From positions 8,003,678 to 8,067,677 of the forward strand of contig NZ_PTJS01000001.1 in NCBI RefSeq assembly GCF_002941025.1: a stretch of DNA of 64,000 nt, given 5' to 3'. A program made the translations under genes and the position numbers. Origin of the DNA: Streptomyces sp. QL37 (lineage in GTDB: Bacteria > Actinomycetota > Actinomycetes > Streptomycetales > Streptomycetaceae). Under the pieces are notes generated by a model that searched no databases, had not been told where the DNA came from, and was given only the letters and a program-made list of their open reading frames with translations. Within the stretch, counting starts at the first letter, position 1, and each line of letters begins with the position of its first letter. This document shows positions 2,664-57,498 of this stretch, piece by piece.

Positions 2664-2688
2664 CCGGCGGGCCCGGGCGCGGCCACAC

Positions 2689-18675: not shown

Positions 18676-18738
18676 CCCCTGCCCCTGTTCCGGAGGGCCC
18701 CCGCGCCCTCTTGGCACCGGCAGCGTAGCAGCGCCCAG

Positions 18739-18757
18739 TGGTCCGGAGGCTGGACCA
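18739..18757. promoter_or_regulatory. candidate GntR operator
   Basis: TGGTCC, 7 bases, GGACCA: a perfect 6-bp inverted repeat between the GntR gene and the malonate genes. TGGT...ACCA spacing of this kind is common for FadR-subfamily sites. The GACCAAT half recurs at 18838-18844. Confidence 0.45.
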
Positions 18758-18773
18758 ATTCATGCGCACCCCC

Positions 18774-18814
18774 TTGACGGCTGTTGCCGCTCCCCGGACT
18801 CTGAGTGCCGTCAA
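18774..18814. promoter_or_regulatory. TTGACGGC inverted repeat upstream of matC
   Basis: TTGACGGC (18774-18781) and GCCGTCAA (18807-18814) are perfect 8-bp complements, 25 bases apart. The left arm also looks like a -35 hexamer for matC. It could be an operator overlapping the promoter or a leader hairpin. Confidence 0.4.
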
Positions 18815-18872
18815 CAGGCGAAGTGGCTCATCCACCAGACCAATGAGGGTCGGCCCAGGACGGGAGCCCGCA

Positions 18873-20135: not shown

Positions 20136-20199
20136 TTCTCGGCATATCCCTGCCCGCGGCCTTCCTCCTGCCGCCGTTCCGTCGATCGGAGTACGACGC

Positions 20200-40786: not shown

Positions 40787-40805
40787 TTAGGTTAGCCTCG
40801 CCTAG
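40787..40805. promoter_or_regulatory. iron box (DmdR/IdeR site) 1
   Basis: TTAGGTTAGCCTCGCCTAG fits the 19-bp actinobacterial iron-box consensus (TTAGGTTAG-x-CTxxCCTAA form) closely. It lies about 125 bases before the carrier-protein gene, so the carrier and reductase genes should be switched on when iron is short. Confidence 0.8.
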
Positions 40806-40928
40806 GTTCGGACGGGGCTGCGTGTCCCGGCCGGGCGTGCGCGTACGTCGCACCCGTGACGGGACGTCGTGACCACCATCGCCGGCGCTGACCCCGCAGC
40901 CGGTGTCCATCCCCTCAGGAGCCATTCC

Positions 40929-41171
40929 ATGAACCAGCAGACCTTGACGCCCGAGCGTGTACGCGCCGACGTCGCGGAACTGATCGGCTGCGACCCGGCC
41001 GAGATCGAGCTCGACGACAACCTGAACGATCTGGGGCTCGACTCGGTGCGGACCATGGTCCTGATCGAGCGCTGGCGCGGGGCGGGGGCGGACGCGCTGG
41101 AGTACCCCGACCTGGCCGAGCAGCCCGAACTGGGCCACTGGACGGAGCTTCTGACGGGTGGCCCCGCATGA
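40929..41171 (+). CDS. free-standing aryl carrier protein
   Basis: An 80-residue carrier domain with the phosphopantetheine site DLGLDSVRTM (Ser39). Its surroundings (LDDNLNDLGLDSVR, then LIERWRGAG) resemble the EntB/DhbB aryl carrier more than ordinary PCPs. It would hold 2,3-dihydroxybenzoate or salicylate for the first condensation domain of the NRPS. ATG 40929 follows AGGAG. It overlaps the next gene by ATGA. No isochorismatase part is attached and no aryl-AMP ligase is in the window. Confidence 0.82.
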   Translation: MNQQTLTPERVRADVAELIGCDPAEIELDDNLNDLGLDSVRTMVLIERWRGAGADALEYPDLAEQPELGHWTELLTGGPA

Positions 41172-42019
41172 GCCTCGCCGACCACCGGGCCCGTCACCTG
41201 GACCGGATCGCGGAAGTCCGTGAGGGTCTCCACGCCGAGAAGGTGGGCTACCCGATCGGTGTCCGGGAGACCGAGGTCGTACGGACCGCCATGGTCGGGG
41301 CCGGTCTGCTGCGGGTGACCCTCGGCGGGAAGGGGACCGAGGGCTTCGAGGCCCATGCGCCGGACGAACACGTGAAAATGCTCTTCCCGGATACGGACGG
41401 CACCCTGAGGCTGCCGGAGCCGAACGGGACGATGCTGCGCTGGGCGGGGTCGGTGCTCCGTTCGCGTCAGTACACGGTGCGGCGTTACGACCCGGTCTCC
41501 GGCGAGATCGACATCGACATCGCCCTCCACGACGGCGGTCTCGCCTCCGACTGGGCGCGTGAAGCCCGGCCCGGCGCGGTGATGCACCTCGCGGGTCCGC
41601 CCGGCGGGCTCATCGTCCCGGACTCCTACGACCGGTACCTGCTCGCGGGCGACATCACGGCGCTGCCGGCGATCGCGCGCCGGCTGGAGGAGCTGCCCAG
41701 GAGTGCGAAGGGCTGGGCGTTCGTCGAAGTCCCCGACGCCGCACAGGAGATCGAACTCTCCGCGCCCGAGGGCGTCGAGGTGAGCTGGCTGCACCGCGGC
41801 GACCGGTCGACGGCGGCCGACGAGGCCTTCGTACGGGCCGTGACCTCGGTGACCGTACCCGAGGGTGAGCGGGTGTACGTGTGGGTCGCGGGCGAGGCGG
41901 GGCAGATCAAGCCTCTGCGCCGCTGGGTCCGCGACGAGCTGGGTCTGGGCAAGGCCGATCACGACATCACCGGTTACTGGAAGCGCGGGGTCGCGGACTT
42001 CGACGAGGACGACCACTGA
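41168..42019 (+). CDS. siderophore-interacting protein (FAD ferric-siderophore reductase)
   Basis: A 283-residue SIP-family flavoprotein that reduces ferric siderophore in the cytoplasm. The FAD-binding barrel contains RSRQYTVRRYDP (about residues 98-109) and HLAGPPGGLIVP. The NADPH-binding half ends with the family hallmark WVAGEAGQIKPLRRWVRDEL, then HDITGYWKRG. It is coupled to the carrier-protein gene by a 4-base overlap under iron box 1. Confidence 0.93.
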   Translation: MSLADHRARHLDRIAEVREGLHAEKVGYPIGVRETEVVRTAMVGAGLLRVTLGGKGTEGFEAHAPDEHVKMLFPDTDGTLRLPEPNGTMLRWAGSVLRSRQYTVRRYDPVSGEIDIDIALHDGGLASDWAREARPGAVMHLAGPPGGLIVPDSYDRYLLAGDITALPAIARRLEELPRSAKGWAFVEVPDAAQEIELSAPEGVEVSWLHRGDRSTAADEAFVRAVTSVTVPEGERVYVWVAGEAGQIKPLRRWVRDELGLGKADHDITGYWKRGVADFDEDDH

Positions 42020-42083: not shown

Positions 42084-42102
42084 TAAGGTAAGCCTTACCT
42101 AA
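42084..42102. promoter_or_regulatory. iron box (DmdR/IdeR site) 2
   Basis: TAAGGTAAGCCTTACCTAA is a near-perfect palindrome (inner AGGTAAG-C-CTTACCT exact) matching the iron-box consensus. It sits 18 bases before the lipoprotein ATG, with GAGGAG in between, and would control the whole uptake - NRPS - exporter run. Confidence 0.9.
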
Positions 42103-42120: not shown

Positions 42121-43125
42121 ATGTCCATACGCAGAACCTCCGGCCTCGTCGGCGCCGTGTCGCTGGCCTTGATCCTGGCCGGGTGCGGGTCCTCGTCGGA
42201 GGGCGAGAGCGGGTCGGACGCGTCGGGGGAGGCCAAGACCCGGGTGTTCGCCGCGGACAACGGGAAGATCACCATTCCCGCGGACCCGAAGCGTGTGGTG
42301 GCCACCGGGTATGCCGTACCCGCCCTGATCGAGGCCGACGCGCCGCTCGTCGGGATCTCCTCGTGGAAGCGCGGCGAGCCGATGATGAGCAAGGAGGACC
42401 TCGCCGAGTACAAGAAGCTCACCAAGGTGGCGGGTGAGCAGGCGGCCGAGACCAACTACGAGGCCATCGCCGAGGCCGAGCCCGACCTGATCGTCATCGG
42501 TGTACCCGCCCCCGTGCTCGGCGACATCGACGTCAAGCGGCTGGAGACCATCGCCCCCGTCGTGGCCATCGGCCCGACCCTGCCGTCCGCCTGGCGTGAC
42601 CTCTCCCGCAAGCAGGCGGACGCCGCCGGCGCCCTCGAGAAGTTCGACGCGGGCCAGAAGGCGTACGAGGCCAAGGCCGCCGAGCTGGCCACGAAGTACA
42701 AGGACGTGCTGCCCCAGCTCAAGCTGGGTCACGTCGGTGCGTACGGCGAGGTCGCCAAGGGCAACTTCCACCGCGAGTTCGACGGCTCGTGGGGAACCAA
42801 CATCGCCCAGGACATCGGCGCGAAGTACTACGGCAAGGTCAAGAAGCCCGGCAAGGGATCGAGCGCGGTCAGCGAGTACCCCTCCCTCGAGGAGCTCCCG
42901 GCATCGCTCGCCGAGGCCGACGCCATCACGTACTCCGTCAACGCCGACGGCTCCGTCTCCGAAGCCGTCCAATACGTCCTCGACTCCAAGCTGTGGAAGA
43001 ACCTCCCCGCGGTCAAGGCCGGCAAGACCTTCCCTCTCCGCTACACCGAGGCCGCGACCTACGGGTCGGCCATGAACACCCTGGACGCGATCGACACGTC
43101 GTTCGCTCCGCTGCTGAAGTCGTGA
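42121..43125 (+). CDS. ferric-siderophore-binding lipoprotein
   Basis: A 334-residue solute-binding protein of the FepB/FecB class. The lipobox is LILAGC with Cys22. The mature protein has two Rossmann-like lobes (RVVATGYAVPALIEADAPLV; YEAIAEAEPDLIVIG) joined by a long helix. It delivers ferric siderophore to the two permeases next to it. Its stop overlaps the first permease start (GTGA). Confidence 0.93.
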   Translation: MSIRRTSGLVGAVSLALILAGCGSSSEGESGSDASGEAKTRVFAADNGKITIPADPKRVVATGYAVPALIEADAPLVGISSWKRGEPMMSKEDLAEYKKLTKVAGEQAAETNYEAIAEAEPDLIVIGVPAPVLGDIDVKRLETIAPVVAIGPTLPSAWRDLSRKQADAAGALEKFDAGQKAYEAKAAELATKYKDVLPQLKLGHVGAYGEVAKGNFHREFDGSWGTNIAQDIGAKYYGKVKKPGKGSSAVSEYPSLEELPASLAEADAITYSVNADGSVSEAVQYVLDSKLWKNLPAVKAGKTFPLRYTEAATYGSAMNTLDAIDTSFAPLLKS

Positions 43126-44147
43126 CCGTCGCGGGTCGCGCGTCGGGACCGGCGGTGAAGAAGCGGGCCGCCGTACCGCAGATCGGCCTGCTGGTCGGGG
43201 GACTGGTGCTGTTGGCGGTGGCCGCCGTGCTCAGCATGGGCATCGGAGCCCGTCCGGTCCCGCCGGCCGAGGTCGTACGCGCGTTGCTGGACTACCAGGG
43301 CACCGACGACCACGTGATCGTGCGTGACGTCCGGGGGCCCCGCTCGCTGCTCGCCGTCGCGGTGGGCGCCGCCCTCGCGGTGTCGGGCGCGCTGATCCAG
43401 ACGCTGGCCCGCAACCCGCTGGCCGAGCCGGGCATCCTCGGGGTCACCGCGGGTGCCGGGTTCGCCATCACCGTCGGCTCGGCGCTCGGGCTGGCCGCCG
43501 GGCAGACGGGCCAGCTCGGCTTCGCCGTCATCGGATCCGTTCTCGCGGCGCTGCTGGTGGCCGCCGTGGGGCGCCGCTCCCCGCTCCGTCTGGTGCTCAC
43601 CGGAGTCGCCCTGACGGCGGTGCTGAGCGGTGTCGCGCTCGGTCTGCGGCTGATGCTCCCGGACGTCTTCGACATGTACCGGTTCTGGTCGGTCGGATCG
43701 CTGGCGGCACGTGAACAGGCCCCGCTGGCACTTCCGTTGACCGCGATCGTGGTCTGTCTGTGCGGCGCGCTCCTGCTGAGCAGGGCGCTCAACGCCCTGG
43801 CCCTGGGCGAGAGCGTGGCGCACACGCTGGGCGCGGGAGTCGGCCGGGTGCGGGTGGCCGCGCTCGTGCTGATCACCGTGCTCTGCGCGGCGGCGACGGC
43901 GGTGGCCGGACCGATCCTGTTCGTCGGCCTGATCGTGCCGCACCTGGTACGCAAGCCGGCGGCGGGCTCGGTGCCCTGGCTCATCGTCTACTCGATGGTG
44001 CTGGGTCCCGTCCTGCTGCTGGTCGCCGACATCGGCTCCCGGCTGCTGCTGCCGACCGGTGAGGTGCCGGTGGGCATCGTGACCGCGTTCCTCGGCGGCC
44101 CCATGCTGATCTGGGCCGTCCGGCGCTACGGGGCGGGGTCGCTGTGA
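43122..44147 (+). CDS. iron-siderophore ABC permease (FecCD family, FepD-like)
   Basis: A 341-residue FecCD permease with 9-10 helices. Family motifs are ALIQTLARNPLAEPGILGVT and AGPILFVGLIVPHLVRKPA. The start is GTG 43122, overlapping the lipoprotein stop by 4 bases. It pairs with the next permease to form the membrane channel. Confidence 0.92.
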   Translation: MTVAGRASGPAVKKRAAVPQIGLLVGGLVLLAVAAVLSMGIGARPVPPAEVVRALLDYQGTDDHVIVRDVRGPRSLLAVAVGAALAVSGALIQTLARNPLAEPGILGVTAGAGFAITVGSALGLAAGQTGQLGFAVIGSVLAALLVAAVGRRSPLRLVLTGVALTAVLSGVALGLRLMLPDVFDMYRFWSVGSLAAREQAPLALPLTAIVVCLCGALLLSRALNALALGESVAHTLGAGVGRVRVAALVLITVLCAAATAVAGPILFVGLIVPHLVRKPAAGSVPWLIVYSMVLGPVLLLVADIGSRLLLPTGEVPVGIVTAFLGGPMLIWAVRRYGAGSL

Positions 44148-45139
44148 ACATACTCGGACTGAGAATCGAACGCCGTACGACCGTACTTGTGGCGGTCATG
44201 GCCGCCCTGATGCTGGGCCTCGGGCTGCTCGGGCTCTGCTACGGCGCCTCCTGGGCCTCCCCGGGCAAGGTGTTCGCCGTGCTGACCGGGGCGGAACGCT
44301 CCGTGGTGATCTCGGACTGGCGGCTCCCGCGCGTGCTGGCCGGGCTCGTCTTCGGCGCCGCACTCGGTGTGGCGGGGGCGATCTTCCAGAACCTCACCCG
44401 CAACCCGATGGGCAGCCCGGACGTGATCGGCCTCGACGCCGGCGCCTACACCGGTGCCCTCGTCGCCATCACCGTCCTCACGGGAACGTCCTTGCAGCTG
44501 GCCGCCGGCTCCGTGCTCGGCGGACTGCTCGTCGCGGCGGCGATCTACCTGCTGGCCTACCAACGGGGATTCTCCGGACTGCGGCTGGTGGTCATCGGCA
44601 TCGCGGTCAACGCGATGGTGACGGCGATCAACTCGTGGATCGTGCTGCGTGCCGAGCTGGAGGTGGCCATCGCCGCCGTCGGCTGGAGCGCGGGCTCACT
44701 CAACGGCGTCGGATGGGGCGACGTGCAGCTCCCGTTCGCGGTGATCGCCGTACTGCTCGTCCTGATGACCACGCGGGCGCACGCCATGCACCAGGCATCG
44801 CTCGGCGACGCGGTCGCGGCGACCACCGGGGTCGGACTCAACCGGCTGCGGCTGCTGATGGTGCTGGTCGGCGTCGGCTGCACGGCCACGGTCACCGCGG
44901 TGGCCGGACCGATCGCGTTCATCGCCCTGGCCGCCCCGCAGATCGGCCGCAGGCTCGCCGGCGCGGCCGGCGTGCCGCTGCTCCCGGCCGCGCTGACCGG
45001 GGCGGTTCTGCTCCAAGGCGCCGATCTGCTCGCCCAGATGCTGCTGGCGCCCGTCGCGCTGCCCGTGGGAGTGGTGAGCACCGCGATCGGCGGTTGCTAT
45101 CTGATCTGGCTGCTGACCAAGGAGGTGAGGCGCGCGTGA
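44144..45139 (+). CDS. iron-siderophore ABC permease (FecCD family, FepG-like)
   Basis: A 331-residue second FecCD subunit: AGAIFQNLTRNPMGSPDVIG and AGPIAFIALAAPQIGRRLAG are the family signatures. It starts at GTG 44144, overlapping the previous gene by 4 bases, and itself overlaps the ATPase gene start. Confidence 0.92.
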   Translation: MNILGLRIERRTTVLVAVMAALMLGLGLLGLCYGASWASPGKVFAVLTGAERSVVISDWRLPRVLAGLVFGAALGVAGAIFQNLTRNPMGSPDVIGLDAGAYTGALVAITVLTGTSLQLAAGSVLGGLLVAAAIYLLAYQRGFSGLRLVVIGIAVNAMVTAINSWIVLRAELEVAIAAVGWSAGSLNGVGWGDVQLPFAVIAVLLVLMTTRAHAMHQASLGDAVAATTGVGLNRLRLLMVLVGVGCTATVTAVAGPIAFIALAAPQIGRRLAGAAGVPLLPAALTGAVLLQGADLLAQMLLAPVALPVGVVSTAIGGCYLIWLLTKEVRRA

Positions 45140-45921
45140 CCGCACGCCTGACCGCGCGGGACATCACCCTGCGCTACGGAGACCGGGTCGTGTCCACACG
45201 GCTGAGCCTCGACGTCCCCGACGGCGCGTTCACCGCCGTCGTGGGCCCCAACGCCTGTGGCAAATCGACCCTGCTGCGCGCCCTGGTGCGGCTGCTGCGC
45301 CCGGAGGCCGGGCACGTGGAACTCGACGGCCGGGAGGTCGGCGGGTACGCGCCCAAGGCACTGGCCAGACAACTCGGCTTCCTGCCGCAGGACCCGCTCG
45401 CTCCCGACGACATCAGGGTCCGGCAGCTCGTGAGCCGGGGACGCTTCCCGCACCAGTCCCTGCTGGCGCTGTGGTCGCCGGACGACGAGGACGCCGTCAC
45501 CGAGGCGATGGCCGCCGCCGGGGTCGGGGACCTCGCCGACCGGCCTGTGCAGGAGCTGTCCGGCGGGCAGCGGCAACGCGTGTGGATCGCCATGGTGCTG
45601 GCCCAGCGGACGTCCTACCTGCTGCTCGACGAACCGACGTCCTTCCTGGACATCACCCACCAGTACCAGTTGCTCGGGCTGCTGGCCCGGCTGCGCGACG
45701 AGGGCCGCACGGTCATCGCCGTCCTGCACGACATCAACCAGGCGTGCCGCTTCGCCGACCACCTCGTCGCCATGAGGGACGGCAGGGTGGTCGCCGAGGG
45801 CGTCCCCGGAGACATCGTCGACGCCGCCCTCATGAAGGACGTCTTCGACCTGCCGAGCGTCATCGTCCCCGACCCCGTGACGGGCACACCGATGGTCGTC
45901 CCCACACTTCAAGGAGAGTAA
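45136..45921 (+). CDS. iron-siderophore ABC ATPase (FepC-like)
   Basis: A 261-residue ATP-binding subunit. Walker A is GPNACGKST, the signature LSGGQRQRVWIAMVLAQ, Walker B LLLDEPTSFLD, and the switch His lies in VLHDINQACRFADH, all typical of FepC. GTG 45136 overlaps the permease stop. The NRPS TTG begins 2 bases after its stop, with the ribosome-binding site AAGGAGAG inside this gene's last codons. Confidence 0.94.
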   Translation: MTARLTARDITLRYGDRVVSTRLSLDVPDGAFTAVVGPNACGKSTLLRALVRLLRPEAGHVELDGREVGGYAPKALARQLGFLPQDPLAPDDIRVRQLVSRGRFPHQSLLALWSPDDEDAVTEAMAAAGVGDLADRPVQELSGGQRQRVWIAMVLAQRTSYLLLDEPTSFLDITHQYQLLGLLARLRDEGRTVIAVLHDINQACRFADHLVAMRDGRVVAEGVPGDIVDAALMKDVFDLPSVIVPDPVTGTPMVVPTLQGE

Positions 45922-45922
45922 G

Positions 45923-48900
45923 TTGAGCACCGCAAGCGTCTCCTCCGGCGGCCTCCTGCCCCTGACCCGGGCCCAGTTGGGCATCTGGAACGCGCAGCGT
46001 CTGGAGCCGGACTCGCCGTACTACGTGGTCGGCGACGTCGTGGAGATATCCGGCGACGAGCCGGTCGACGTCCAGGCGCTGGTCGAGGCGGTCCGGGCGA
46101 CCACCGAGGAGGCCGAGACGCTGCGGTTGCGGGTGTACGACACCCCCGAGGGGCCGCGCCAGGCGGTCAGCGAGGAACCGGTCGAGCCCCCCGAGGTGAT
46201 CGACGTCAGGGGAGCGGCCGATCCCGTGGCCGCCGCCCAGGCACTGGTCGACGCCGAGCGGACGCGGGCCGCCGAGCGGTGCCGGGGGATGGTCGACCGG
46301 CCGCTCTGCTCGCGCACGGTCATCCGGCTCTCCGACCGGGAGGTCTGGTACACCCAGCTCGGCCACCACCTGGTGTTCGACGGCTACACCGCGGCGATGC
46401 TCGCCCGCCGCACCGGCGCCCGCTACACCGCCCTGGTGCGGGGGAGCGAGCCTGCCAGGTCGACGTTCGGCAGCTTCGCCGCCCTCGTCGCCGCCGACCA
46501 GGCCTACCGGGACAGCGACCGGTTCGCCGAGGACCGGGCGTACTGGGTCGAGCGGTTCACCCCGCTGCCCGAACTCGGTTCCCTCGACGGTCCCGACGCC
46601 GCGGTCGGCGCCCCCGACCGCACCCTCACCGCCCGTACCGTCCTCACACCCGAGGAGACGGCCCGGCTGCGCGCGTTCGCCGACACCGAAGGCGTCACCT
46701 GGGGTGAGGCGCTGATCGCCGGGTACGCCGCCTTCCTGCACCGCATGCTGGCACGCACGGACGTCGTGTTCGCGCTGCCGCTGATGTGCCGGGCCGGCTC
46801 CGTCGAGCTGCGCACACCCGCCATGGCCGTCAACGTGCTGCCGCTGCGGGTCGGCGTGCGCGGCGGTGACGGGCTCGGCGACCTGAGCCGGCGGGTGGCC
46901 TCCGCGATGCGTGAGATGCGCGACCACCAGCGGTACCGGGGCGAGGACCTTCCGCAGGACCTCGGCGTGCCCGGCGCCGGCGCTCTGCTGCACGGACGCG
47001 GGATCAACCTCAAGGCGTTCGACCTGGCGATCGACTTCGCCGGGTCCGGCGGTGTGATGCGCAACGTCGCGGGAGGTCCGCCGGAGGACATGGGCCTGAG
47101 CGTCCTGCCGACCCGGGACGGCGGGCTGCTGCTCGGCTTCGAGGTCGACGCGCGGACCAACGACCAGGCATCGGTGGACAGTCTGCTCTCCGGTCTGCGC
47201 ACCCTGCTGACCGGGCTCGTCGACGGCCTGGCCGTCGGGCGGATCGCCATGGCAGGTGACGTGGACCGGCTGATGGAGGCCTGGTGCCCGCCGCCACTGC
47301 CCGGTACCCCCGTGGACGTGCCCACCGCGTTCGACGCGATCGCCGCCGCCGGACCCGGTCGTACGGCCCTGGTCTGCGGTGAGGATCGGCTGACCGCGGC
47401 GGACCTCGCGGACCGGGTGCACCGGCTGGCCCGCGCACTGCGGGCCCGCGGGATCGGGGCCGACGACGTCGTGGCGCTCGCGCTGCCCCGCTCCGCCGAC
47501 TCGGTCGTCGCCCTGCTGGCCGTGCTGGACGCGGGCGCCGCGTTCCTGCCCCTGGACGCCGCGTACCCGCCCGAGCGGCTGCGCGAGCTGATCGACGACA
47601 CCCGCCCCGCGCTGGTGGTGACCTCCGGCGCGATCGACGGTCTGCCGTGGGACACCCTGCTCGCGGAGGCCGCCGGCCTCTCGGGCGCGCCCCTGGAAGC
47701 CGGTGAACTGGCCGCGCCCCGGCACCCCGAGCACCTGGCCTACGTGATCCACACCTCCGGGTCGACCGGACGGCCCAAGGGCGTGCTCGGCCGCGTCGGT
47801 GGTCTGGCCCAGCTGCTGCACCACCAGCGGTCCACGGTCGTCGCGGAGGCCGAGCAGGCCGCCGGCAGGCGGCTGCGCGCCGCTCACACCTACTCGTTCG
47901 CCTTCGACTCCGCGTTCGACCACCTGGTGTGGCTGCTGTGCGGCCACGAACTGCACGTCTACGACGCCGAGACGATCCGCGACGCCGACGCCCTGCTCGC
48001 GGCGTACGCCCGGGACGGCATCGACGTCGTCGACACCACGCCGTCGATGGCCGCGCCGCTGATCGAGGGCGGTCTGCTCGACCTGCGTCCGACGCTGCTG
48101 GTCCTCGGCGGTGAAGCCACCCCGCCCGCGCTGTGGCGGAAGGTCGCCGGGTCGGGGACGAACGCGCGCAACATCTACGGCCCGACCGAGGCCACCGTCG
48201 ACAGCACCACCGCCCGGATCGACGACGGGGAGCCGACGATCGGCCACCCGCTCGCCGGCACCCGGACCTACGTGCTGGACAGCGCGCTGCAACCCGTGCC
48301 CCACGGCACGACGGGCGAGCTGTACCTCGCAGGGCCGCACCTGGCCCGCGGCTATCTCGGCCGGCCGGGGGCCACCGCCGACCGCTTCGTCGCCGACCCG
48401 TACGGCGCGCCGGGAGAGCGGATGTACCGTACCGGCGACCTGGCCCGATGGGTGCCCGGCCGGGGCCTCGAATACGGAGGCCGGGGCGACGGACAGGTGA
48501 AGATCCGCGGACACCGGGTGGAGACCGGCGAGGTCGAAGCGGCCCTCGCGGCCGTGCCCGGGGTCACGGCCGCCGCCGCCAGGGTGCTCTCGTCCCGGCT
48601 GGTCGGTTACGTGGTGTCCGCCTCGGTCACCGGCGACACGGTGCGTTCGTACCTCGCCGAGCGCCTGCCCGACCACATGGTGCCCGCGGCGGTGGTGGTG
48701 CTCGCCGAACTGCCCGTCACGCCCAACGGCAAACTCGACCGCGCCGCCCTGCCCGCGCCCGCCGCCGCGGGCGGCGGCCGGGAGCCGAGCACCGAGCAGG
48801 AGCGCCTGCTCTGCGCCGTACTCGCCGAAGCCCTGGACGTCGAACGGGTCGGTGTGGACGACGACTTCTTCGCCCTCGGCGGGGACAGCATCACCGCGAT

Positions 48901-51900
48901 CACCGTCAGCAGCAGGCTGCGGGCCGTGGGCCTCGGCCTGCGGCCACGAGACCTGCTGGCGCGCCGCAGCTTCGCCGCCCTGGCCGCCTCGGCCGAGCTG
49001 CTTCAGGACGTCCCCGAGCCGGTGGACGACCCCACCGGAGCCGTGCCCGCGCCGCCGATCGTGCGTGGCCTGCTCGACCCGCATCCCGATGTGGACGTGG
49101 TCGCCGGCTACGCCCAGTGGACCGCCCTGAGCGTCGACGAACTGGACCGCGACGCCCTGGTCACCGGCGTCCAGGCCGTGCTCGACCACCACGACGCCCT
49201 GCGGCTGCGGGTGGCCGACGGCCTGGAGGTCCTGCCCCGGGGCACGGTACGGGCCGTCGTGGACGAGGTGCGCGGCGAGGACACGACCGCCCTGGCACGG
49301 CGGCTGGCGGGAGAACTGGACCCGAGGACGGGCGACCTGCTGCGAGCGGCCCTGCTCCGCACCGGCGACGACACCGCGGACCGCCTGGTCGTCGTCGTGC
49401 ACCACCTCGCCATGGACGGCGTGTCCTGGCGCGTCCTGCTGCCCGACCTGCACACGGCGTGCACGGGCGGCGCCCTCGCCCCGGTCGGTGCGTCCTGGCG
49501 GCGGCACTCGCTGCTGCTCGCCGAACAGGGGGCGACCGGCGCGCGACGTGGTGAACTGGACCACTGGCGCGACGCGCTCGCCACCTCGTCCCGGCTCGGC
49601 ACCCGGCCGCTGGACCCGGCGCGTGACACGGTCTCGACCGCCCACCGTTCGGTCACCGTGGCCTCGCCGGAGGCCACCGAGGCACTGCTGACGACGCTGC
49701 CCGCCGCCTACCGCGCCGGAGTGGACGAGGTGCTGCTCGCGGCGCTCGTGCTCGCCCTTCGGAGCTGGGGCCTCTCCGGCGACGACGTGACCGTCTCGAT
49801 GGAGGGCCACGGCCGCGAACACCTCGACCTCTCCCGTACGGTCGGCTGGTTCACCAGCGAGTACCCGGTCCGCGTCCCCGCGTCCGACGACGCGGGCCGT
49901 GCGCTGCGCGCCGCCAAGGAGGCCAGGCGCCACGTCCCCGACGCCGGCATCGGATACGGCGTCCTGCGCCACCTCGACCCGGAGGCCGGTGCCGAGCTCT
50001 CGGCCACCCCGCCCCCGGACGTGCTGCTCAACTACCTGGGCCGGTTCGCCCCGTTGGCCGCGACCGGATGGCGTCTGCCGGAACACGACGCCTTCTCGGT
50101 GACCGAGCCCGGTGCCAAGGCCCTGGAACAGGTCCTGGCCCTCAACTGCTTCGTCCACGAGGGCGATTCGCCCCGGCTCGCCGTCGAGTGGACCGCGGCG
50201 ACCGAGGTGCTCGGCACCGACGTCGTGACGGCCCTGCAGACGGCCTGGGCCGGAGCCCTGGACACCCTGACCGAGCACGCGCTCCACACCCGGGGCGGGC
50301 TCACCCCGTCCGACCTCCCGCTGGTCCACCTCGACCAGGCGGCCATCGACGCCCTCGAACGCACCGGCCGCATCGCCGACGTACTGCCCGCCACACCGCT
50401 CCAGGTCGGGCTGTCCTTCCACACCCTGGTCCGCGACGAGGACGAGACCGACGTCTACGTCGTCCAGGCCGTGACCACCCTGGCCGGCGAGCTGATCCCG
50501 GACCGCATGGCGGAGGCCGCGCGCGAACTGCTGCGCCGGCACCCCGCTCTGCGCGTGTACCTGGGCACGGCCGGCGACGACGTGGTGCAGGTGATCCCCG
50601 CCGACGTCACCCTGGACTGGCGGCAGGACGACCGGTTCCCCGAGGCCGCGCGCGCCGATCTGGAGCGCCCGTTCGACCCGAGCAGGCCGCCGCTCATCCG
50701 CTTCCTGCTGTCCCGGGTCGGGCCCGCCGAGCACAAGCTGGTGATCACGAACCACCATTCCCTGCTCGACGGCTGGTCGATGCCCCTGGTCGGCCGGGGC
50801 CTCCTCGCCATCTACGCCGAGCTGAGCGGCGGGCCCGCGGCCCCGGCCGCCCAGCCGCTGTCGGAGTACTTCCGGTGGCTGTCGGGCCGGGACCGGGACG
50901 CCTCGCTCGCCGCGTGGCGCGACGCGCTGGCAGGCGTCGACGACGCGACCAGGCTGGCACCCGCGCGCACCGGGACCGGCATCGAGCGGCCGGGCCGCGA
51001 AACCATCGGACTGGGAAGCGAGTTCAGCGACCGGCTGCGCGCGTTCGCCCGGGACGAGGGCGTCACCCTGACCACGGTCCTCCAGACCGCGTGGGGACTG
51101 CTGCTGGGCAGGCTCACCGGCCGCCTCGACGTCGTGTTCGGCTGCCCGGTCTCCGGGCGGCCCGCCGAGGTCGACGGAGTCGAGTCGATGATCGGCCAGC
51201 TCGGCACCACGATCCCCGTACGCGTCCGGCACGGCCGGGACATGACAGCCCGTCAGCTCATGGCCCAGGTGCACGCCGAGAGCGTCGCCCTGGCCGAGCA
51301 CCACCACGTCGGTCTGCCCGAGATCCAGCGGGCCACGGGCATCGGCGAACTGTTCGACACGATGCTCGTGATGGAGAACTTCCCGCTGTCCAGCCGGAAG
51401 CGCACCCCGCTCGCCCCCGGACTCGACCTGGCCGGGGTGGACATCACCGACGCCACCCACTACGCGCTGACCGTCATCGTGATTCCCGACGACGAGATCA
51501 CGATCGGCCTCGGCTACCAGCCACGCGCCTTCGACGCCTCGGCCGTACGCGACTACGGCCGCTGGCTGCACAACCTCCTGAGGGAGATCGTCGACGACCC
51601 GGCACGGCCCGCCGTCCGGCTGCCCGCGCTCGACGCCGGCGAGCGCGAGCGGATGCTGCGCACCGGCACGGAGATCGTCGCCGCCAGGCGCCGGGGCCAC
51701 TGGCTGGAGGAGTTCGCCGCCTGGGTGGACCGCAAGCCCGATGCCGAGGCCCTGGTCTGCCGCGACCGCAGCCTGAGCTACGCCGAACTGGACGCGCGGG
51801 CCAACCGGCTCGCCCACGCGCTGATCGCACGCGGAGTCCGGCCCCAGGACCCGGTCGCGGTCCTGCTCGGGCGCGACATCGAGATGACCGTGGCGCTGTT

Positions 51901-54900
51901 CGGCGTGGCCAAGGCCGGCGCCGTGTACGTACCGATGGACGCGAGCTACCCGCGAGAGCGGCTGGCCTACATGTTCGACGACATCGCACCGGCCGCCGTC
52001 GTGACGACCGGCGCCGAGCTGCCCGTCTCACGCGAGATCCCGGTGCTGCGGCTGGACGACCCGGCCGCGCTCGCGTCCGCGCCGGCAACCGACCCGGCCG
52101 ACGCACGCGCCGCGCTCACCGACGACGCGCTCGCCTACGTCATCTACACCTCCGGCACCACCGGGCGCCCCAAGGGCGTCGGAGTGACCCACCGGGGTGT
52201 GCCCGATCTGATCGCGCTCCAGGAGGAGGTCGTCGGCGTCACCGAGCACGACCGGTACCTGCACTTCGCGTCGACCAGCTTCGACGTCGCGTTCTGGCAG
52301 ACCATGGTGCCCCTGCTCTCGGGCGGCACCTCCGTGATCGCGCCCGAGGAGGTGCGCGTTCCCGGCGACGAACTCCTCGACTACATCATCGAGCACCGGG
52401 TGACGGGAGTGAACCTGCTCCCCTCGTTCCTCGCCGCGATGCCCGACGACCGCACCGTCGATCCCGACGTGTTCTTCGTCGTCGGCGCCGAGCGCCTCGA
52501 CCCCGAGCTGGCGCGGCGCTGGGGCGAGGGCCGCAGGGCACTGTTCAACGCCTACGGCCCGACCGAGGTCACCATCAACTCCACGACGTGGCGCTACGAC
52601 CCGGAGGACACCGGACCGCTGCCGATCGGACGCCCGGACCCCGACGTCCGCGCCTACGTCCTCGACGGCGGGCTCCAGCCGGTCGGCGTCGGCGTGACGG
52701 GTGAGCTGTACCTCGGCGGGCCGAGCCTGGCGCGCGGCTACCTCGGCCGTCCCGGCCTGACCGCCGCGACGTTCGTGGCCTCTCCGTTCGGCCCCCCGGG
52801 GGAGCGGATCTACCGCACGGGCGACCTGGTGCGGTGGCGGCCGGACGGGCAGCTGGTGTTCCTCGGCCGCGCCGACCACCAGGTCAAGATCCGCGGCTTC
52901 CGCGTCGAACTCGGAGAGATCGAGTCCACTCTCACCAGCCATCCCGATGTCCGCGCCTGTGCCGTGATCATGCGGGAGGGCAGGCTCGTCGGCTACGTCA
53001 TCCCGACCGACGACGCCGACCTCGACACCGCGCGGCTGCGGGAGTACCTGGCCGGGGAACTGCCCGACCACATGGTGCCGACGGCGCTCGTGCCGATCAG
53101 CCGGCTGCCGCTCAGCCCCAGCGGCAAGCTCGACACCTCGGCACTGCCGGCCCCCGAGACCACGGCCGCGGCACGGCGTGAACCCGCCACCGAGGCCGAG
53201 GCGTTGCTCCTCGCGGTGTTCCGGGACATCCTGGGCAGCGACGAGGTCGGCCTCGACGACGACTTCTTCGCCGTCGGCGGAGACAGCATCGTGGCCCTGC
53301 AAGTGGTCTCGCGGGCCCGGCGCCAAGGGCTCGGACTCGCCGCACGGGACGTGTTCGAAGGAGAGACCGTCGCCGGGATCGCGGCGCGGGCCCGGGATCT
53401 CGACGCCGGCGACGCCCCCGCGGTCGGCGATGCCCCGCTGACCCCGGTCATGCGGGACCTGCTGCGCCGTGCCGGGGCCGCCGCTGACGGGTTCTGCCAG
53501 TGGGTGGAGATCTGTGTCCCGCCCGGGGGCGACGAGAGAGCCTGGCAGGGCGTGCTCGACGCGCTCCTGGCCCGGCACGACGTGCTCCGCGCCCGGCTGG
53601 CCGGGGACGTGCTGCGCATCCCGCCCGTCGGCTCGGTCACCGGAGCCGACGTACTGACCCGCGTACCGGCGACGGACGACCTGAGGGCCGCGTCCGACTC
53701 CGGGACCGAGGCGGCCCGGGGGGCGATGGACCCGCGCACCGGTCCGCTGCTGCGCGCGGTATGGGTGGACGCCGGCCCGGCCCGGCCGGGCCGGCTCGTC
53801 CTGATCGCCCATCACCTGGTCGTCGACGGTGTGTCCTGGCGCGTGCTGCTGGACGACGTGGAACACGCCCACTCCGGTGGAACACTGGCCCGGCACGGCG
53901 AGTCGTTCCTCGGCTGGGCACGTTCACTGCACGACGCCGACCGGCGCGCCGAACTGCCGCACTGGCAGCGGATGAGCGCCACCCAGGCACTCACCCGACC
54001 GCTCGACCCCGCCCGGGACACCGTGGCCACGGCGAAGCACCACGAGATCCGGCTCGACGCCGGATCGACCCGCGCCCTGATCACGACCCTGCCCGCCGCC
54101 TACCGCACCACCCCGGACGCCGTGCTGCTGACGGCGCTCGCCCAAGCGGTACGGGACTGGCGCGGGACTCAGAGGCTCCTGGTCGCGCTGGAGAGCCATG
54201 GACGCCCCCGGCAGGTCGACCTGTCCCAGACCGTCGGCTGGTTCACGGCCGTCCACCCCGTGCTGCTCGACGCGGACGACGACATCAAGACCGTCAGGGA
54301 GCGGCTGCGCGCGCAGGGCGACGGCCTCGGCCACGGCATCCTGACCGCGGCGGGCCTGCTGGACCCCGTGGAACCGGAGGTCGCCTGGAACTACCTCGGC
54401 CAGTACCCCGGCGCCCCGGCGGACGAGACGCCGTGGCAGGCACCCCCGGACGCCGACCCGCTCGGCTCGGGGGGCTCCGAGGCCATGCCCCTTCCGCACA
54501 GCCTGATGGTCAACGCCCTCGTACGCGACGACGCGCTCGGGGTACGCATCACCTGGCCGTCCGCGCTGTTCACCGCCGCCGAGATCGAGGACCTGGGCCA
54601 GCACGTGCGGACAGCGCTCCTGCGCACCGCGGCCGCGCCGGAGATCAGCGCGCTCGGCCCCGGCCGTACGGTCGCCGGCATACAGCCGCTCACACCCTTG
54701 CAGGAGGTGATGCTGCGGCACTCCCGCACCGAGCGACCCGACCCGTACACCGTGCAGTCGGCGTTCTCCCTCGCCGGCCCGCTCGACACCGACGCCCTGC
54801 GCGCCGCGGGCGACGAACTGCTGGCCCGCCACCCGAACCTGGGCGCCGTGTTCCCCGCCTCACTGGCAGTGATCCCCGTGTCGCCCAGGCCGGACTTCCG

Positions 54901-55897
54901 GGTGACCGACGCACCGGCCGAAGAGGTGCTGGCCGCGGACCTGGCCGAGCCCTTCGACCTCACGGCAGGCCCGCTGGTGCGCCTCACCGTGATCAGGCGC
55001 GGAGCCGAGCGCTCCGACCTGGTCCTGACCACCCATCACGTCCTCTCCGACGGCTGGTCGGCACCCCGGATCCTCATCGAACTGTTCGCCCTCTACACGG
55101 CCCGGGTCCGAGGCGTGGCCCCGGAGCTGCCCGCCCCCGTGCCGTTCGCCGACTACCTGAGCTGGTGCGCCGACCACGAGCCCGACCTCGGGGCGTGGAA
55201 GGCCGAGCTCGACGGCCTGCCCGAGGGCGACCACCTGGGCGGCGGCGTGCCGGGCCCGGCATGGCAGGAACCCGAGGTCATCGACTTCGACGCGGCCCTG
55301 GTGGCAGACCTCAGCCGCCTCGCCGCGGGGCGCGGTCTGACCCGCAACACGCTGGTCCAGGGCGTGTGGTCGGTGCTGCTCGCCAGGCGTTCCGGCCGGA
55401 CGGACGTCTGCTTCGGGGCCATGGTCGCCTGCCGTCCCCCGGAGCTGGACGGTGTCGAGGAGATCATCGGACTGCTGGCCAACACCGTCCCCGTGCGGGC
55501 ACGGCTCGCCGGAACACTCGCCGGCACACTGGCCGACATCCAGACCCGGCAGCGGGCCCTGGTGGAGCACCAGCACGTCGCCCTGTCCGACCTGGAACGG
55601 CTGACCGGGCGGAACCGGCTGTTCGACAGCATGGTGGTGTTCGAGAACTACCCCGTCGACCCGGAACGCCTGCGCGAACCCGCCCCGGGGCTCACCGTCG
55701 TCGGGACCCGCTTCCGCGAGGCCACGCACCACCCGGCGACCCTGACGGTCATGCCGGACGGCGACGGCTGGACCGGCGTGCTCGCCCACCGGGCGGGGGT
55801 GGACGTAGACGGACTCGCCGAGGAGCTGCTCGAACTGCTCCGCAACCTGGACAAGCACCTCGACGCCGACGTGCTCGATCTCCTGGAGGGCCGATGA
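45923..55897 (+). CDS. siderophore NRPS, C-A-PCP-E-C-A-PCP-E-C
   Basis: A 3,324-residue two-module synthetase. Domains: C1 about 12-440 (HHLVFDG at 148-154; EntF-like, starter type), A1 467-960 (HTSGSTGRPKG), PCP1 (LGGDSIT, Ser989), E1 1020-1475 (HHLAMDG at 1160, EGHGRE, NYLGR), C2 1487-1920 (HHSLLDG at 1611), A2 1930-2425 (YTSGTTGRPKG), PCP2 (VGGDSIV, Ser2455), E2 2475-2915 (HHLVVDG at 2630, ESHGRP, NYLGQ) and C3 2920-3324 (HHVLSDG at 3038). All C and E active-site HHxxxDG motifs are intact. By eye the A1 pocket reads D-S-D-D-L-L-I-V-D and A2 D-V-W-N-V-G-A-I-N; A1 may take a basic or polar residue and A2 a Thr-like one (weak inference). No thioesterase or reductase follows. Start TTG 45923 after AAGGAGAG. 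Confidence 0.95.
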   Translation: MSTASVSSGGLLPLTRAQLGIWNAQRLEPDSPYYVVGDVVEISGDEPVDVQALVEAVRATTEEAETLRLRVYDTPEGPRQAVSEEPVEPPEVIDVRGAADPVAAAQALVDAERTRAAERCRGMVDRPLCSRTVIRLSDREVWYTQLGHHLVFDGYTAAMLARRTGARYTALVRGSEPARSTFGSFAALVAADQAYRDSDRFAEDRAYWVERFTPLPELGSLDGPDAAVGAPDRTLTARTVLTPEETARLRAFADTEGVTWGEALIAGYAAFLHRMLARTDVVFALPLMCRAGSVELRTPAMAVNVLPLRVGVRGGDGLGDLSRRVASAMREMRDHQRYRGEDLPQDLGVPGAGALLHGRGINLKAFDLAIDFAGSGGVMRNVAGGPPEDMGLSVLPTRDGGLLLGFEVDARTNDQASVDSLLSGLRTLLTGLVDGLAVGRIAMAGDVDRLMEAWCPPPLPGTPVDVPTAFDAIAAAGPGRTALVCGEDRLTAADLADRVHRLARALRARGIGADDVVALALPRSADSVVALLAVLDAGAAFLPLDAAYPPERLRELIDDTRPALVVTSGAIDGLPWDTLLAEAAGLSGAPLEAGELAAPRHPEHLAYVIHTSGSTGRPKGVLGRVGGLAQLLHHQRSTVVAEAEQAAGRRLRAAHTYSFAFDSAFDHLVWLLCGHELHVYDAETIRDADALLAAYARDGIDVVDTTPSMAAPLIEGGLLDLRPTLLVLGGEATPPALWRKVAGSGTNARNIYGPTEATVDSTTARIDDGEPTIGHPLAGTRTYVLDSALQPVPHGTTGELYLAGPHLARGYLGRPGATADRFVADPYGAPGERMYRTGDLARWVPGRGLEYGGRGDGQVKIRGHRVETGEVEAALAAVPGVTAAAARVLSSRLVGYVVSASVTGDTVRSYLAERLPDHMVPAAVVVLAELPVTPNGKLDRAALPAPAAAGGGREPSTEQERLLCAVLAEALDVERVGVDDDFFALGGDSITAITVSSRLRAVGLGLRPRDLLARRSFAALAASAELLQDVPEPVDDPTGAVPAPPIVRGLLDPHPDVDVVAGYAQWTALSVDELDRDALVTGVQAVLDHHDALRLRVADGLEVLPRGTVRAVVDEVRGEDTTALARRLAGELDPRTGDLLRAALLRTGDDTADRLVVVVHHLAMDGVSWRVLLPDLHTACTGGALAPVGASWRRHSLLLAEQGATGARRGELDHWRDALATSSRLGTRPLDPARDTVSTAHRSVTVASPEATEALLTTLPAAYRAGVDEVLLAALVLALRSWGLSGDDVTVSMEGHGREHLDLSRTVGWFTSEYPVRVPASDDAGRALRAAKEARRHVPDAGIGYGVLRHLDPEAGAELSATPPPDVLLNYLGRFAPLAATGWRLPEHDAFSVTEPGAKALEQVLALNCFVHEGDSPRLAVEWTAATEVLGTDVVTALQTAWAGALDTLTEHALHTRGGLTPSDLPLVHLDQAAIDALERTGRIADVLPATPLQVGLSFHTLVRDEDETDVYVVQAVTTLAGELIPDRMAEAARELLRRHPALRVYLGTAGDDVVQVIPADVTLDWRQDDRFPEAARADLERPFDPSRPPLIRFLLSRVGPAEHKLVITNHHSLLDGWSMPLVGRGLLAIYAELSGGPAAPAAQPLSEYFRWLSGRDRDASLAAWRDALAGVDDATRLAPARTGTGIERPGRETIGLGSEFSDRLRAFARDEGVTLTTVLQTAWGLLLGRLTGRLDVVFGCPVSGRPAEVDGVESMIGQLGTTIPVRVRHGRDMTARQLMAQVHAESVALAEHHHVGLPEIQRATGIGELFDTMLVMENFPLSSRKRTPLAPGLDLAGVDITDATHYALTVIVIPDDEITIGLGYQPRAFDASAVRDYGRWLHNLLREIVDDPARPAVRLPALDAGERERMLRTGTEIVAARRRGHWLEEFAAWVDRKPDAEALVCRDRSLSYAELDARANRLAHALIARGVRPQDPVAVLLGRDIEMTVALFGVAKAGAVYVPMDASYPRERLAYMFDDIAPAAVVTTGAELPVSREIPVLRLDDPAALASAPATDPADARAALTDDALAYVIYTSGTTGRPKGVGVTHRGVPDLIALQEEVVGVTEHDRYLHFASTSFDVAFWQTMVPLLSGGTSVIAPEEVRVPGDELLDYIIEHRVTGVNLLPSFLAAMPDDRTVDPDVFFVVGAERLDPELARRWGEGRRALFNAYGPTEVTINSTTWRYDPEDTGPLPIGRPDPDVRAYVLDGGLQPVGVGVTGELYLGGPSLARGYLGRPGLTAATFVASPFGPPGERIYRTGDLVRWRPDGQLVFLGRADHQVKIRGFRVELGEIESTLTSHPDVRACAVIMREGRLVGYVIPTDDADLDTARLREYLAGELPDHMVPTALVPISRLPLSPSGKLDTSALPAPETTAAARREPATEAEALLLAVFRDILGSDEVGLDDDFFAVGGDSIVALQVVSRARRQGLGLAARDVFEGETVAGIAARARDLDAGDAPAVGDAPLTPVMRDLLRRAGAAADGFCQWVEICVPPGGDERAWQGVLDALLARHDVLRARLAGDVLRIPPVGSVTGADVLTRVPATDDLRAASDSGTEAARGAMDPRTGPLLRAVWVDAGPARPGRLVLIAHHLVVDGVSWRVLLDDVEHAHSGGTLARHGESFLGWARSLHDADRRAELPHWQRMSATQALTRPLDPARDTVATAKHHEIRLDAGSTRALITTLPAAYRTTPDAVLLTALAQAVRDWRGTQRLLVALESHGRPRQVDLSQTVGWFTAVHPVLLDADDDIKTVRERLRAQGDGLGHGILTAAGLLDPVEPEVAWNYLGQYPGAPADETPWQAPPDADPLGSGGSEAMPLPHSLMVNALVRDDALGVRITWPSALFTAAEIEDLGQHVRTALLRTAAAPEISALGPGRTVAGIQPLTPLQEVMLRHSRTERPDPYTVQSAFSLAGPLDTDALRAAGDELLARHPNLGAVFPASLAVIPVSPRPDFRVTDAPAEEVLAADLAEPFDLTAGPLVRLTVIRRGAERSDLVLTTHHVLSDGWSAPRILIELFALYTARVRGVAPELPAPVPFADYLSWCADHEPDLGAWKAELDGLPEGDHLGGGVPGPAWQEPEVIDFDAALVADLSRLAAGRGLTRNTLVQGVWSVLLARRSGRTDVCFGAMVACRPPELDGVEEIIGLLANTVPVRARLAGTLAGTLADIQTRQRALVEHQHVALSDLERLTGRNRLFDSMVVFENYPVDPERLREPAPGLTVVGTRFREATHHPATLTVMPDGDGWTGVLAHRAGVDVDGLAEELLELLRNLDKHLDADVLDLLEGR

Positions 55898-57294
55898 GCA
55901 AGGAGGCGGCGCCTCCCGTGGGGCGGGTGGACCGAGAGCTGCTGCGGGTCGCGTTCATCCTGGTGCTCGGCACCTTCATGGCCACGCTGGACGCCACGAT
56001 CGTCAGCGTCGGAATCGACGCCCTGACCGCCGAGTTCGGCGCCTCCGTCGCGGAGATCCAGTGGGTCAGCACGGCCTACCTGCTGGCCGTGGTCGCCGCG
56101 GTGCCCGCGTCGGGCTGGCTGGCCGACCGCTTCGGCGGCAAACGGACATGGCTCGCCGCCGTGGGCGTCTTCCTGCTCGGCTCGCTTCTGTGCGCGCTGG
56201 CCTGGTCGGCGACCAGCCTGATCGTCTTCCGGGTGATCCAGGGCCTCGGTGGCGGGCTGCTGCCCGCCACCGGGCAGGCGTTGCTGGCCCGCGTCGCGGG
56301 ACCGAACCGCACCGGCCGGGTGATCAGCGTCGTCGCGGTCGTCCCGCTGCTCTCACCGGTCTTCGGCCCGCTCGTCGGCGGCTCCATCCTCGGCGTCGCG
56401 CCCTGGCCGTGGCTGTTCCTGGTCAACCTGCCGATCGGGGTGGCCGCCGCCCTGCTCGCCCGCCGACACGTGCCCACGGTGCCGCCGTCGCCGCGTCGGA
56501 CGCCGTTCGACCTGCGGGGCGCCGCGATGCTCTCGCCCGGCCTGGCCGTGCTGGTCTACGGGCTGACCGAGGTGGCCGACGGCCGAACCCTCCCGGCCAC
56601 GGTCGGAGTGACGGCGGGCCTCGCGATGCTGGCCTGTTTCACCGTGCACGGGCTACGCACCCGCGCCACACCGCTGGTCGACCCGCGGCTCTTCACCCGG
56701 CCGCCCTTCGGTGCGGCCGCCCTCGCGCTGGTGGTACTGGGCGCCTCGGTGTTCGGCACGATGTTCCTGCTCCCGCTGTACTTCCAGACCGGCCGCGGCC
56801 TCTCGGCGTGGGAGGCCGGACTGCTCCTGGCCCCCCAGGGGCTGGGCGCGGCCGCCGGTTCGGTCCTGGTCAACCGCACCATCGACAAGGTCGCGCCGCG
56901 GACCCTGGTGGTGACCGGAATCGTGCTGATCCTCGTGGGCACCGTCCCGTTCACCCAGCTCGGCCACGGCATCCCGGACGCCGTGATCGCCACGGCGCTC
57001 GCGGTCCGCGGCCTCGGGATGGCGATGGTCGGTGCGCCGGTGATGAACATCGTCTACAGCCGGATCGAGCCGGAGCAGCTGCCCCGCGCGTCCGGAGCGC
57101 TCAACCTGCTCAACACCGTGGGCGGTTCGGTGGGCACCGCCGCTCTCGCCGTGGTCCTGCAGAGCCGGCTCTCCGCCCGTGGCCACGACATCGCCTCGGC
57201 GTTCGCCGACACCTTCTGGTGGGTGCTCGGCTTCTGCCTGCTCGCCGCGGCAGGTGCCACGAGACTGCCCCGTACCCAGGTCAGGACGCCATGA
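55894..57294 (+). CDS. DHA2/EmrB-type MFS exporter
   Basis: A 466-residue drug:H+ antiporter-2 family protein, probably 14 helices. It opens ILVLGTFMATLDATIVSVGI, with motif A in loop 2-3 (GWLADRFGGKRTW) and the antiporter motif C region VVPLLSPVFGPLVGG. The ATG overlaps the NRPS stop (ATGA), so the two are co-translated; the likely role is export of the siderophore made by that enzyme. Last gene of the unit. Confidence 0.93.
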   Translation: MSKEAAPPVGRVDRELLRVAFILVLGTFMATLDATIVSVGIDALTAEFGASVAEIQWVSTAYLLAVVAAVPASGWLADRFGGKRTWLAAVGVFLLGSLLCALAWSATSLIVFRVIQGLGGGLLPATGQALLARVAGPNRTGRVISVVAVVPLLSPVFGPLVGGSILGVAPWPWLFLVNLPIGVAAALLARRHVPTVPPSPRRTPFDLRGAAMLSPGLAVLVYGLTEVADGRTLPATVGVTAGLAMLACFTVHGLRTRATPLVDPRLFTRPPFGAAALALVVLGASVFGTMFLLPLYFQTGRGLSAWEAGLLLAPQGLGAAAGSVLVNRTIDKVAPRTLVVTGIVLILVGTVPFTQLGHGIPDAVIATALAVRGLGMAMVGAPVMNIVYSRIEPEQLPRASGALNLLNTVGGSVGTAALAVVLQSRLSARGHDIASAFADTFWWVLGFCLLAAAGATRLPRTQVRTP

Positions 57295-57411: not shown

Positions 57412-57498
57412 CCTAGCGTGGCGGCGCCACCGTAGGCGTAGTGCTAATTCGCGGATCAGTACAGCCCGACCGGAGTGCCACCCCCTGCTGGAGGACCG

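Follow-up and report, generated by a model that had tools for sequence, protein, structure and literature searches.

Siderophore assembly lines of the mirubactin type are known from Actinosynnema mirum and from Streptomyces, and they are the described systems closest to the locus treated here, a non-ribosomal peptide synthetase (NRPS) gene of Streptomyces sp. QL37 whose product ends in a condensation (C) domain. The gene lies in a stretch of 64,000 nucleotides (positions 8,003,678 to 8,067,677 of contig NZ_PTJS01000001.1), referred to below as the window. For mirubactin, the formula C26H32N6O11 and a value of 605.2207 have been given (PMC12630106). Mirubactin A was reported at 605.2 and 658.1 from Streptomyces MDA8-470, a strain near S. 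drozdowiczii; the mirubactin-like cluster of this producer borders a coelichelin cluster, the 2,3-dihydroxybenzoate (DHB) genes that the cluster lacks form part of an operon about 130 kb upstream, and the two ornithine-type residues are described as D-configured, as seen in mirubactin C (PMC9609785). A mirubactin cluster is listed at 50% for S. alfalfae XN-04 (PMC8493286) and predicted for Streptomyces SM18 (PMC6676996); PMC6011815 mentions chlorocatechelins only. For the terminal domain the closest described case is IvoA of Aspergillus nidulans, in which a terminal C domain of the DCL class, placed after an epimerization (E) domain, hydrolyses a D-aminoacyl thioester and sets free a D-amino acid (PMC12751119). 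A review of IvoA calls this domain CT (PMC11546977), and one of the two sources gives the product as D-Trp, the other as D-Tyr.

The NRPS of the window is very probably a mirubactin-type siderophore assembly line. Its domain order is C-A-PCP-E-C-A-PCP-E-C (A, adenylation; PCP, peptidyl carrier protein), and the coding frame terminates immediately after the last C domain, C3. A Pfam search of the 3,324-residue protein gave five Condensation stretches (C and E together), two AMP-binding and two PP-binding matches, and no match to a thioesterase (TE); the HHxxxDG motifs at residues 148, 1160, 1611, 2630 and 3038 are all intact. These results, with an MFS exporter gene (55894-57294) overlapping the stop codon, confirm an earlier note made from the bare sequence, which had described the same order and ending, no thioesterase, and intact motifs up to the last one at 3038-3044, a position that proved exact. 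The start codon is TTG, preceded by AAGGAGAG. Both modules contain an E domain, as in the mirubactin-type layout, and upstream, head to tail, stand genes for a stand-alone aryl carrier protein (ArCP), a siderophore-interacting protein (SIP) of the reductase type, a binding protein (SBP), two FecCD permeases and an ATPase (Table 1). The starter domain C1, the two E domains and the ArCP support the aryl-D-aa1-D-aa2 chain that the earlier note proposed. Its further statement that no known siderophore line is matched finds no support, because the operon, the neighbouring genes in relatives, the mass arithmetic and a published Streptomyces producer with a like layout (PMC9609785) all fit mirubactin. 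Judging from the genes, the product is likely mirubactin-like, DHB-D-Arg-D-formylhydroxyornithine (fhOrn) with a second DHB. By arithmetic, two DHB, one Arg and one fhOrn less three H2O give an [M+H]+ of 605.220 and an Fe form of 658.13, and this formula leaves one carboxyl free if the chain is linear.

The unusual ending is shared by relatives. Among 295 genomes of the genus, C3 is matched at E <= 1e-85 in QL37 and in 11 others (78-84% identity), 12 in all, and each of those 11 also encodes an ArCP orthologue (68-77% identity). A scan of species genomes, which may leave out records close to QL37, gave 49 named orthologous loci, mostly in Streptomyces and also in Actinacidiphila, Actinomadura, Tamaricihabitans and one metagenome-assembled genome; several come from genomes also present in the set of 295, and one (L179) is the locus of S. 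alfalfae XY25. The protein ends 430-555 residues past the start of the C3 match in 48 of the 49, and in L173 the contig runs out first. A frameshift at the 3' end, named in the earlier note as a possible source of error, is rejected because 48 of 49 orthologues stop at the same place, the remaining one being lost at a contig edge, and the stop is genuine. The terminal C domain is a fixed feature of this NRPS family, conserved and not there by chance. Open frames exceed 3,300 residues in 39 of the loci; those of L142, L151, L154, L155, L164 and L178 start at a contig edge, and the records of L158, L160 and L162 contain an in-frame stop further upstream, in L158 less than 600 bases from the contig end; sequencing error, a contig edge or decay may account for these stops. 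An MFS gene lies 3' of the NRPS gene in 48 of the 49 loci, L173 having no DNA at that place. The six genomes compared over the full operon have the identical order ArCP-SIP-SBP-FecCD-FecCD-ATPase-NRPS-MFS, with NRPS identities of 79-88%.

The C-domain classes applied to these domains, DCL and starter, are those defined in PMC1894796. In a tree of C and E domains (66 of 91 domains excised; every one of the 26 domains available from the QL37 genome, where 27 were intended, together with eight of the 13 orthologue sets), C2 and C3 form a group, supported at SH-aLRT 98, with five C domains of the same genome that follow E domains and a further one whose context is undetermined. The starter and LCL groups are separate from it. 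The tree is a quick one, without bootstrap and with some long branches flagged. By this grouping C3 is a member of the DCL class. A sequence search of the PDB matched C3 best to McyB and to the second C-type domain of both PvdL and bacitracin synthase 3, and in the last two alignments an E-like stretch precedes the part that matches C3. By class and by its place directly after E, C3 resembles the terminal domain of IvoA. Over the 39 orthologues longer than 3,300 residues pN/pS is 0.280 for C3, 0.334 for C1, 0.304 for C2 and 0.214 for A2; synonymous change is high, and the ratios are comparable among themselves only. Purifying selection acts on C3 as it does on the sister domains, the HHxxxDG motif of C3 is intact in 13 of 13 sequences of one sample and 12 of 12 of another, and it occurs in Streptomycetaceae, Actinomadura and Tamaricihabitans. 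The protein ends at the point where, after C2, the C-A linker would begin. A model of C3 predicted with 12 close orthologues as input had a mean pLDDT of 43 and was not used. No experiment on the terminal C domain in mirubactin-type NRPSs turned up among titles and abstract openings in a literature search that left subscription literature largely uncovered and carries little weight; PMC13251462, on catecholate siderophores, has no bearing on C3 function.

The evidence for a DHB starter comes from C1, the ArCP and the distribution of DHB genes. In the tree, C1 and the C domain of an EntF-like protein form a group with an SH-aLRT of 85, and of 100 once two further first-position C domains are included; PDB matches to C1 include VibH (E 1.2e-24), EntF and the CDA starter domain. 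A DHB-AMP ligase (E <= 1e-190) occurs in 77 of the 295 genomes, in 11 of the 12 with C3 versus 66 of the 283 without (Fisher p 2e-6, the kinship of the genomes being ignored). In some relatives the genes are neighbours: dhbA-C-E-B adjoins the ArCP gene, divergently in G075 and running into it in G073, and in L108 and L110 dhbC stands beside the ArCP gene without dhbA and dhbB. L108 (genome G133) also has a partial dhbE at 2545-3204, with longer matches to the ligase elsewhere in that genome; this is perhaps the trace of a move from linked to shared DHB supply. In QL37 the DHB genes, dhbA-C-E-B, lie outside the window at 732-737 kb of contig C1 (to be distinguished from the domain of that name), together with an ArCP of their own, an EntF-like C-A-PCP-TE protein and an enterochelin-esterase-like gene. 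By its gene content this locus is a second, enterobactin-like system, which could share DHB with the mirubactin-like line. The QL37 genome contains, then, what the DHB starter of a mirubactin-type cluster calls for: ArCP, starter C domain and DHB genes.

An ornithine hydroxylase and a formyltransferase are likewise present in the genome and linked to the operon in relatives. Within the up to 10 kb surveyed per locus, a formyltransferase gene lies 3' of the exporter in at least 20 of the 49 loci, a lower bound because some loci cover less than 10 kb downstream; an ornithine N-monooxygenase accompanies it in 15 and is absent in 5, and Pfam confirmed the hydroxylase. In QL37 a divergent formyltransferase/hydroxylase pair occupies C1:8135285-8137829 (L198:17286-19830), about 76 kb downstream of the NRPS; its products are 86% and 79% identical to those of the pair in L106, and its hydroxylase was also confirmed by Pfam. 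The earlier note had allowed for parts from other loci, and both the DHB genes and this pair do lie outside the window. QL37 also has a coelichelin-like cluster of its own (262-281 kb), in which a hydroxylase is present and a formyltransferase absent; the sole other formyltransferase match in the genome, at 7.35 Mb, is 30% identical. Because the only close formyltransferase sits outside the coelichelin-like cluster, at C1:8.135 Mb beside a second ornithine hydroxylase, two siderophore systems may depend on the 8.135 Mb pair. In relative G171, whose NRPS is 83% identical to that of the window, the DHB ligase lies 129 kb before the ArCP and a coelichelin-like NRPS is adjacent, the layout described for the producer in PMC9609785. 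This coelichelin-like NRPS (L106:11489-19501) aligns in pieces, in different frames, perhaps through sequencing error or decay.

Substrates were predicted from the A-domain codes, in which the third position was set by hand for A2, the EntF-like code and coelichelin A1 and A2. The A1 code, DSDDVGIVDK, is acidic at positions 239 and 331, and because of this acidic pocket, together with the product family, Arg is the predicted substrate. The A2 code, DVWNVGAINK, is identical in 41 of the 48 orthologues in which it is readable (that of L160 is not), and the other seven differ at one or two of nine positions. It shares N278, G301, I330 and N331 with the module-3 code of the coelichelin-like NRPS of QL37, DMENLGLINK, and A2 would select fhOrn.

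A mirubactin-type line with scattered precursor genes and hydrolytic release by C3 accounts for these results, an account to which we give about an even chance. DHB made by the dhbA-C-E-B genes at 732-737 kb would be loaded on the ArCP of the operon. C1 would couple it to Arg on PCP1 and E1 would invert the Arg; C2 would then add fhOrn, the product of the 8.135 Mb pair, and E2 would invert that residue. C3 would use water as acceptor, so that the D-configured chain would leave as a free acid, and the arginine guanidine would receive a second DHB. Export of the siderophore would fall to the MFS protein, and recovery of the iron complex to the ABC importer and the reductase. Hydrolytic release is favoured because a DCL domain expects a D donor, as PCP2 would present after E2, because there is no tethered acceptor, because the product is expected to keep a free carboxyl, and because IvoA offers a precedent.

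Several points weigh against this account. To our knowledge the A2 code is not one recorded for fhOrn, and the substrates of A1 and A2 are read from their codes; the product itself is predicted from the genes of QL37. The tree that places C3 in the DCL class was made by a quick method, without bootstrap and with long branches flagged. G081, a draft of about 700 contigs, has C3 and no DHB ligase at E <= 1e-90. A coelichelin-like NRPS gene, 70-81% identical to that of QL37, comes next behind the hydroxylase/formyltransferase pair in L104 and L106, so the pair may serve the coelichelin-like cluster there; in L109 and L116 no coelichelin-like NRPS gene was found in the downstream DNA covered. IvoA is fungal and has a single module. 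The mirubactin NRPS of A. mirum is not among the loci found, and the likeness is drawn from published descriptions, in which its domains are given as C-A-PCP-E, C-A-PCP-E, E, A, KR (PMC9120177), the last condensation-type domain as E and not C; possibly the domain labelled there as a third E is what is called the terminal C domain here. Finally, hydrolysis by C3 leaves the agent that adds the second DHB unexplained.

This last point leads to the rival that fares best, possible though less probable than hydrolysis, in which C3 moves the second DHB from the ArCP to the arginine guanidine of the PCP2-bound chain, release being spontaneous or the work of another enzyme. Reportedly, the first paper on mirubactin proposed a hydroxamate ester, and the structure was later revised to an acylguanidine. 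Members of the mirubactin/chlorocatechelin family carry a second DHB or chloro-DHB, and chlorocatechelin A is described as an acylguanidine; the annotated operon genes include no further recognisable acyltransferase, and C3 has an intact motif and is under purifying selection. Its acceptor side has no tethered carrier, so that a diffusing ArCP could dock there. Against this, the tree places C3 among the DCL domains, away from C1 and the EntF-like starter C domain, which are the ones expected to take DHB-ArCP, and the upstream PCP would serve as carrier of the nucleophile, an unusual geometry. A fuller version, in which C3 makes the acylguanidine from ArCP-bound DHB and perhaps releases the product as well, one domain both decorating and ending the chain, would be chemistry for which we know of no precedent in a DCL-class C domain, and it is more doubtful still.

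It is improbable that the protein is half of a split NRPS, with C3 joining the chain to an amino acid carried by an A-PCP(-TE) protein from another locus, a partner that the earlier note had proposed seeking. The genome has several NRPS loci, among them the EntF-like protein at the dhb locus, and ORFs were searched for AMP-binding, PP-binding and Condensation matches (E <= 0.001, 0.001 and 0.01). Among those with both AMP-binding and PP-binding, only L037:6729-10793 (C1:6.25 Mb) lacks a Condensation match; it has the order A-PCP-TE, a C-terminal extension and an A domain interrupted by a long insert. In this insert it resembles indigoidine synthetases, a name given by none of the 25 family models listed for it, and it was set aside on that account. 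Genes for an A domain and for a PCP, each stand-alone, are neighbours at C1:1.754-1.756 Mb, but they adjoin a PLP-decarboxylase gene and multi-carrier ORFs, which they probably feed. The EntF-like protein was rejected as a third module for its weak co-occurrence (its TE, at >= 64% identity, in 3 of 12 C3 genomes versus 24 of 283 others, p 0.09) and its code, DVWHFSLVDK, presumably that of Ser. Nor does any linker or docking sequence follow C3. No convincing partner module was found, and one is unlikely. At L038:6790-11444 (C1:1.752-1.756 Mb) the A/PCP pair stands with an Orn/Arg-type PLP decarboxylase near the large multi-carrier ORFs, which may be a polyketide line; pair and decarboxylase are perhaps a starter-unit set. 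Elsewhere, L036:6919-11961 (C1:7.51 Mb) encodes an NRPS of the order A-PCP-C-PCP-C-PCP, with one A, three PCPs and two C domains whose motifs both read HHIVTDD instead of HHxxxDG, and the small contig L042 (G000:C2, 8.9 kb) carries pieces of NRPS genes in both orientations and may be a repetitive NRPS folded in assembly.

That C3 captures a soluble amine or alcohol to give an amide or ester end, as the earlier note suggested, is about as improbable. VibH, like C3, is a C domain without a downstream carrier of its own, and the NRPS has no TE and a free acceptor side. VibH matches C1, however, and is absent from the 37 PDB matches of C3 at E <= 1e-5, C3 falls in the DCL group, and no amine-making gene was seen among the annotated neighbours, many flanking ORFs being unannotated. 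Least probable of all is that C3 is the dead remnant of a lost third module such as the A-PCP that follows E-C in coelichelin-type lines: a few residues are missing before the last helix in a 12-copy alignment, unlike in the Actinomadura and Tamaricihabitans copies, which are complete there, but a pN/pS below those of C1 and C2, the intact motif in all sequences sampled and the occurrence of C3 in Streptomycetaceae, Actinomadura and Tamaricihabitans speak against decay.

Coordinates of the operon and its domains are given in Table 1. For iron regulation, 19-base sites were scored against the DmdR/IdeR iron-box consensus. On the + strand of the window only two sites have at most five mismatches, and both lie inside the NRPS operon. 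As raw counts, 11 other genomes were scanned over the roughly 3 kb surrounding the ArCP gene, and 10 of them have such sites; none was found in that region in L064.

Table 1. Position of the NRPS, its domains and the accompanying operon features in the window.
Feature	Position	Strand	Basis or remark
Iron-box-like palindrome, operon upstream region	40787..40805	+	15/19 against the DmdR/IdeR consensus
Stand-alone ArCP, 80 aa	40929..41171	+	PP-binding E 2.6e-8 in longer ORF 40869-41171
SIP, ferric reductase type	41168..42019	+	SIP + FAD_binding_9
Second iron-box-like palindrome	42084..42102	+	
Ferric-siderophore binding protein	42121..43125	+	Peripla_BP_2; Fe-enterobactin SBP model match below its cut-off
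FecCD permease 1, start approximate	43110..44147	+	longest ORF 42789-44147
FecCD permease 2	44144..45139	+	
ABC ATPase	45136..45921	+	ABC_tran within ORF 44635-45921
NRPS C-A-PCP-E-C-A-PCP-E-C	45923..55897	+	3,324 aa
C1, starter C domain	45956..47242	+	tree and PDB matches; would take DHB from ArCP
A1, code DSDDVGIVDK, predicted Arg	47315..48742	+	acidic pocket and product family
PCP1	48785..49012	+	
E1	49040..50317	+	tree
C2, assigned to DCL class	50369..51667	+	tree
A2, code DVWNVGAINK, predicted fhOrn	51710..53137	+	code reading
PCP2	53186..53398	+	
E2	53420..54562	+	tree
C3, terminal C domain assigned to DCL class	54674..55894	+	tree, PDB search, alignments
MFS exporter (DHA2/EmrB type)	55894..57294	+	overlaps NRPS stop

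Adjoining the operon, at 57475-60507, is a gene for a 1,010-residue protein with PA14, CBM35 and 3-keto-disaccharide hydrolase domains. Farther off in the window, genes for a MatC-type carrier and an AMP-binding ligase stand side by side (18738-21654) and a gene with an acyltransferase domain stands alone (32299-33252); the three are perhaps concerned with malonate use.

These comparisons place a seemingly orphan assembly line with a known siderophore type, and they suggest how one Streptomyces can feed three siderophore systems (enterobactin-, coelichelin- and mirubactin-like) from shared, scattered precursor genes. For the family, the question is whether a DCL-class C domain releases chains with water in bacteria or builds an acylguanidine, and about 50 orthologues are at hand for it. 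The coelichelin-like NRPS of QL37 (C1:261962-272917) resembles the NRPS of the window in having E followed by a C domain of the DCL grouping, and its module-1 code corresponds to fhOrn; it differs in having a third A-PCP and no terminal C domain. With IvoA the NRPS shares the PCP-E-C end, a terminal C domain assigned to the DCL class and an expected free-acid product. As described, chlorocatechelins A and B stand to each other as mirubactins A and C do, with one chlorine as the difference between mirubactin C and chlorocatechelin B; no halogenase was found among the annotated operon genes, the rest of the genome not having been searched for one. The mirubactin lines of A. mirum and Streptomyces MDA8-470 agree with this locus in a two-module NRPS with two E domains and in a supply of DHB and fhOrn. 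The Streptomyces producer also has its DHB genes away from the cluster, as here, whereas the QL37 cluster does not lie beside that for coelichelin and its DHB and fhOrn genes are found at two other places.

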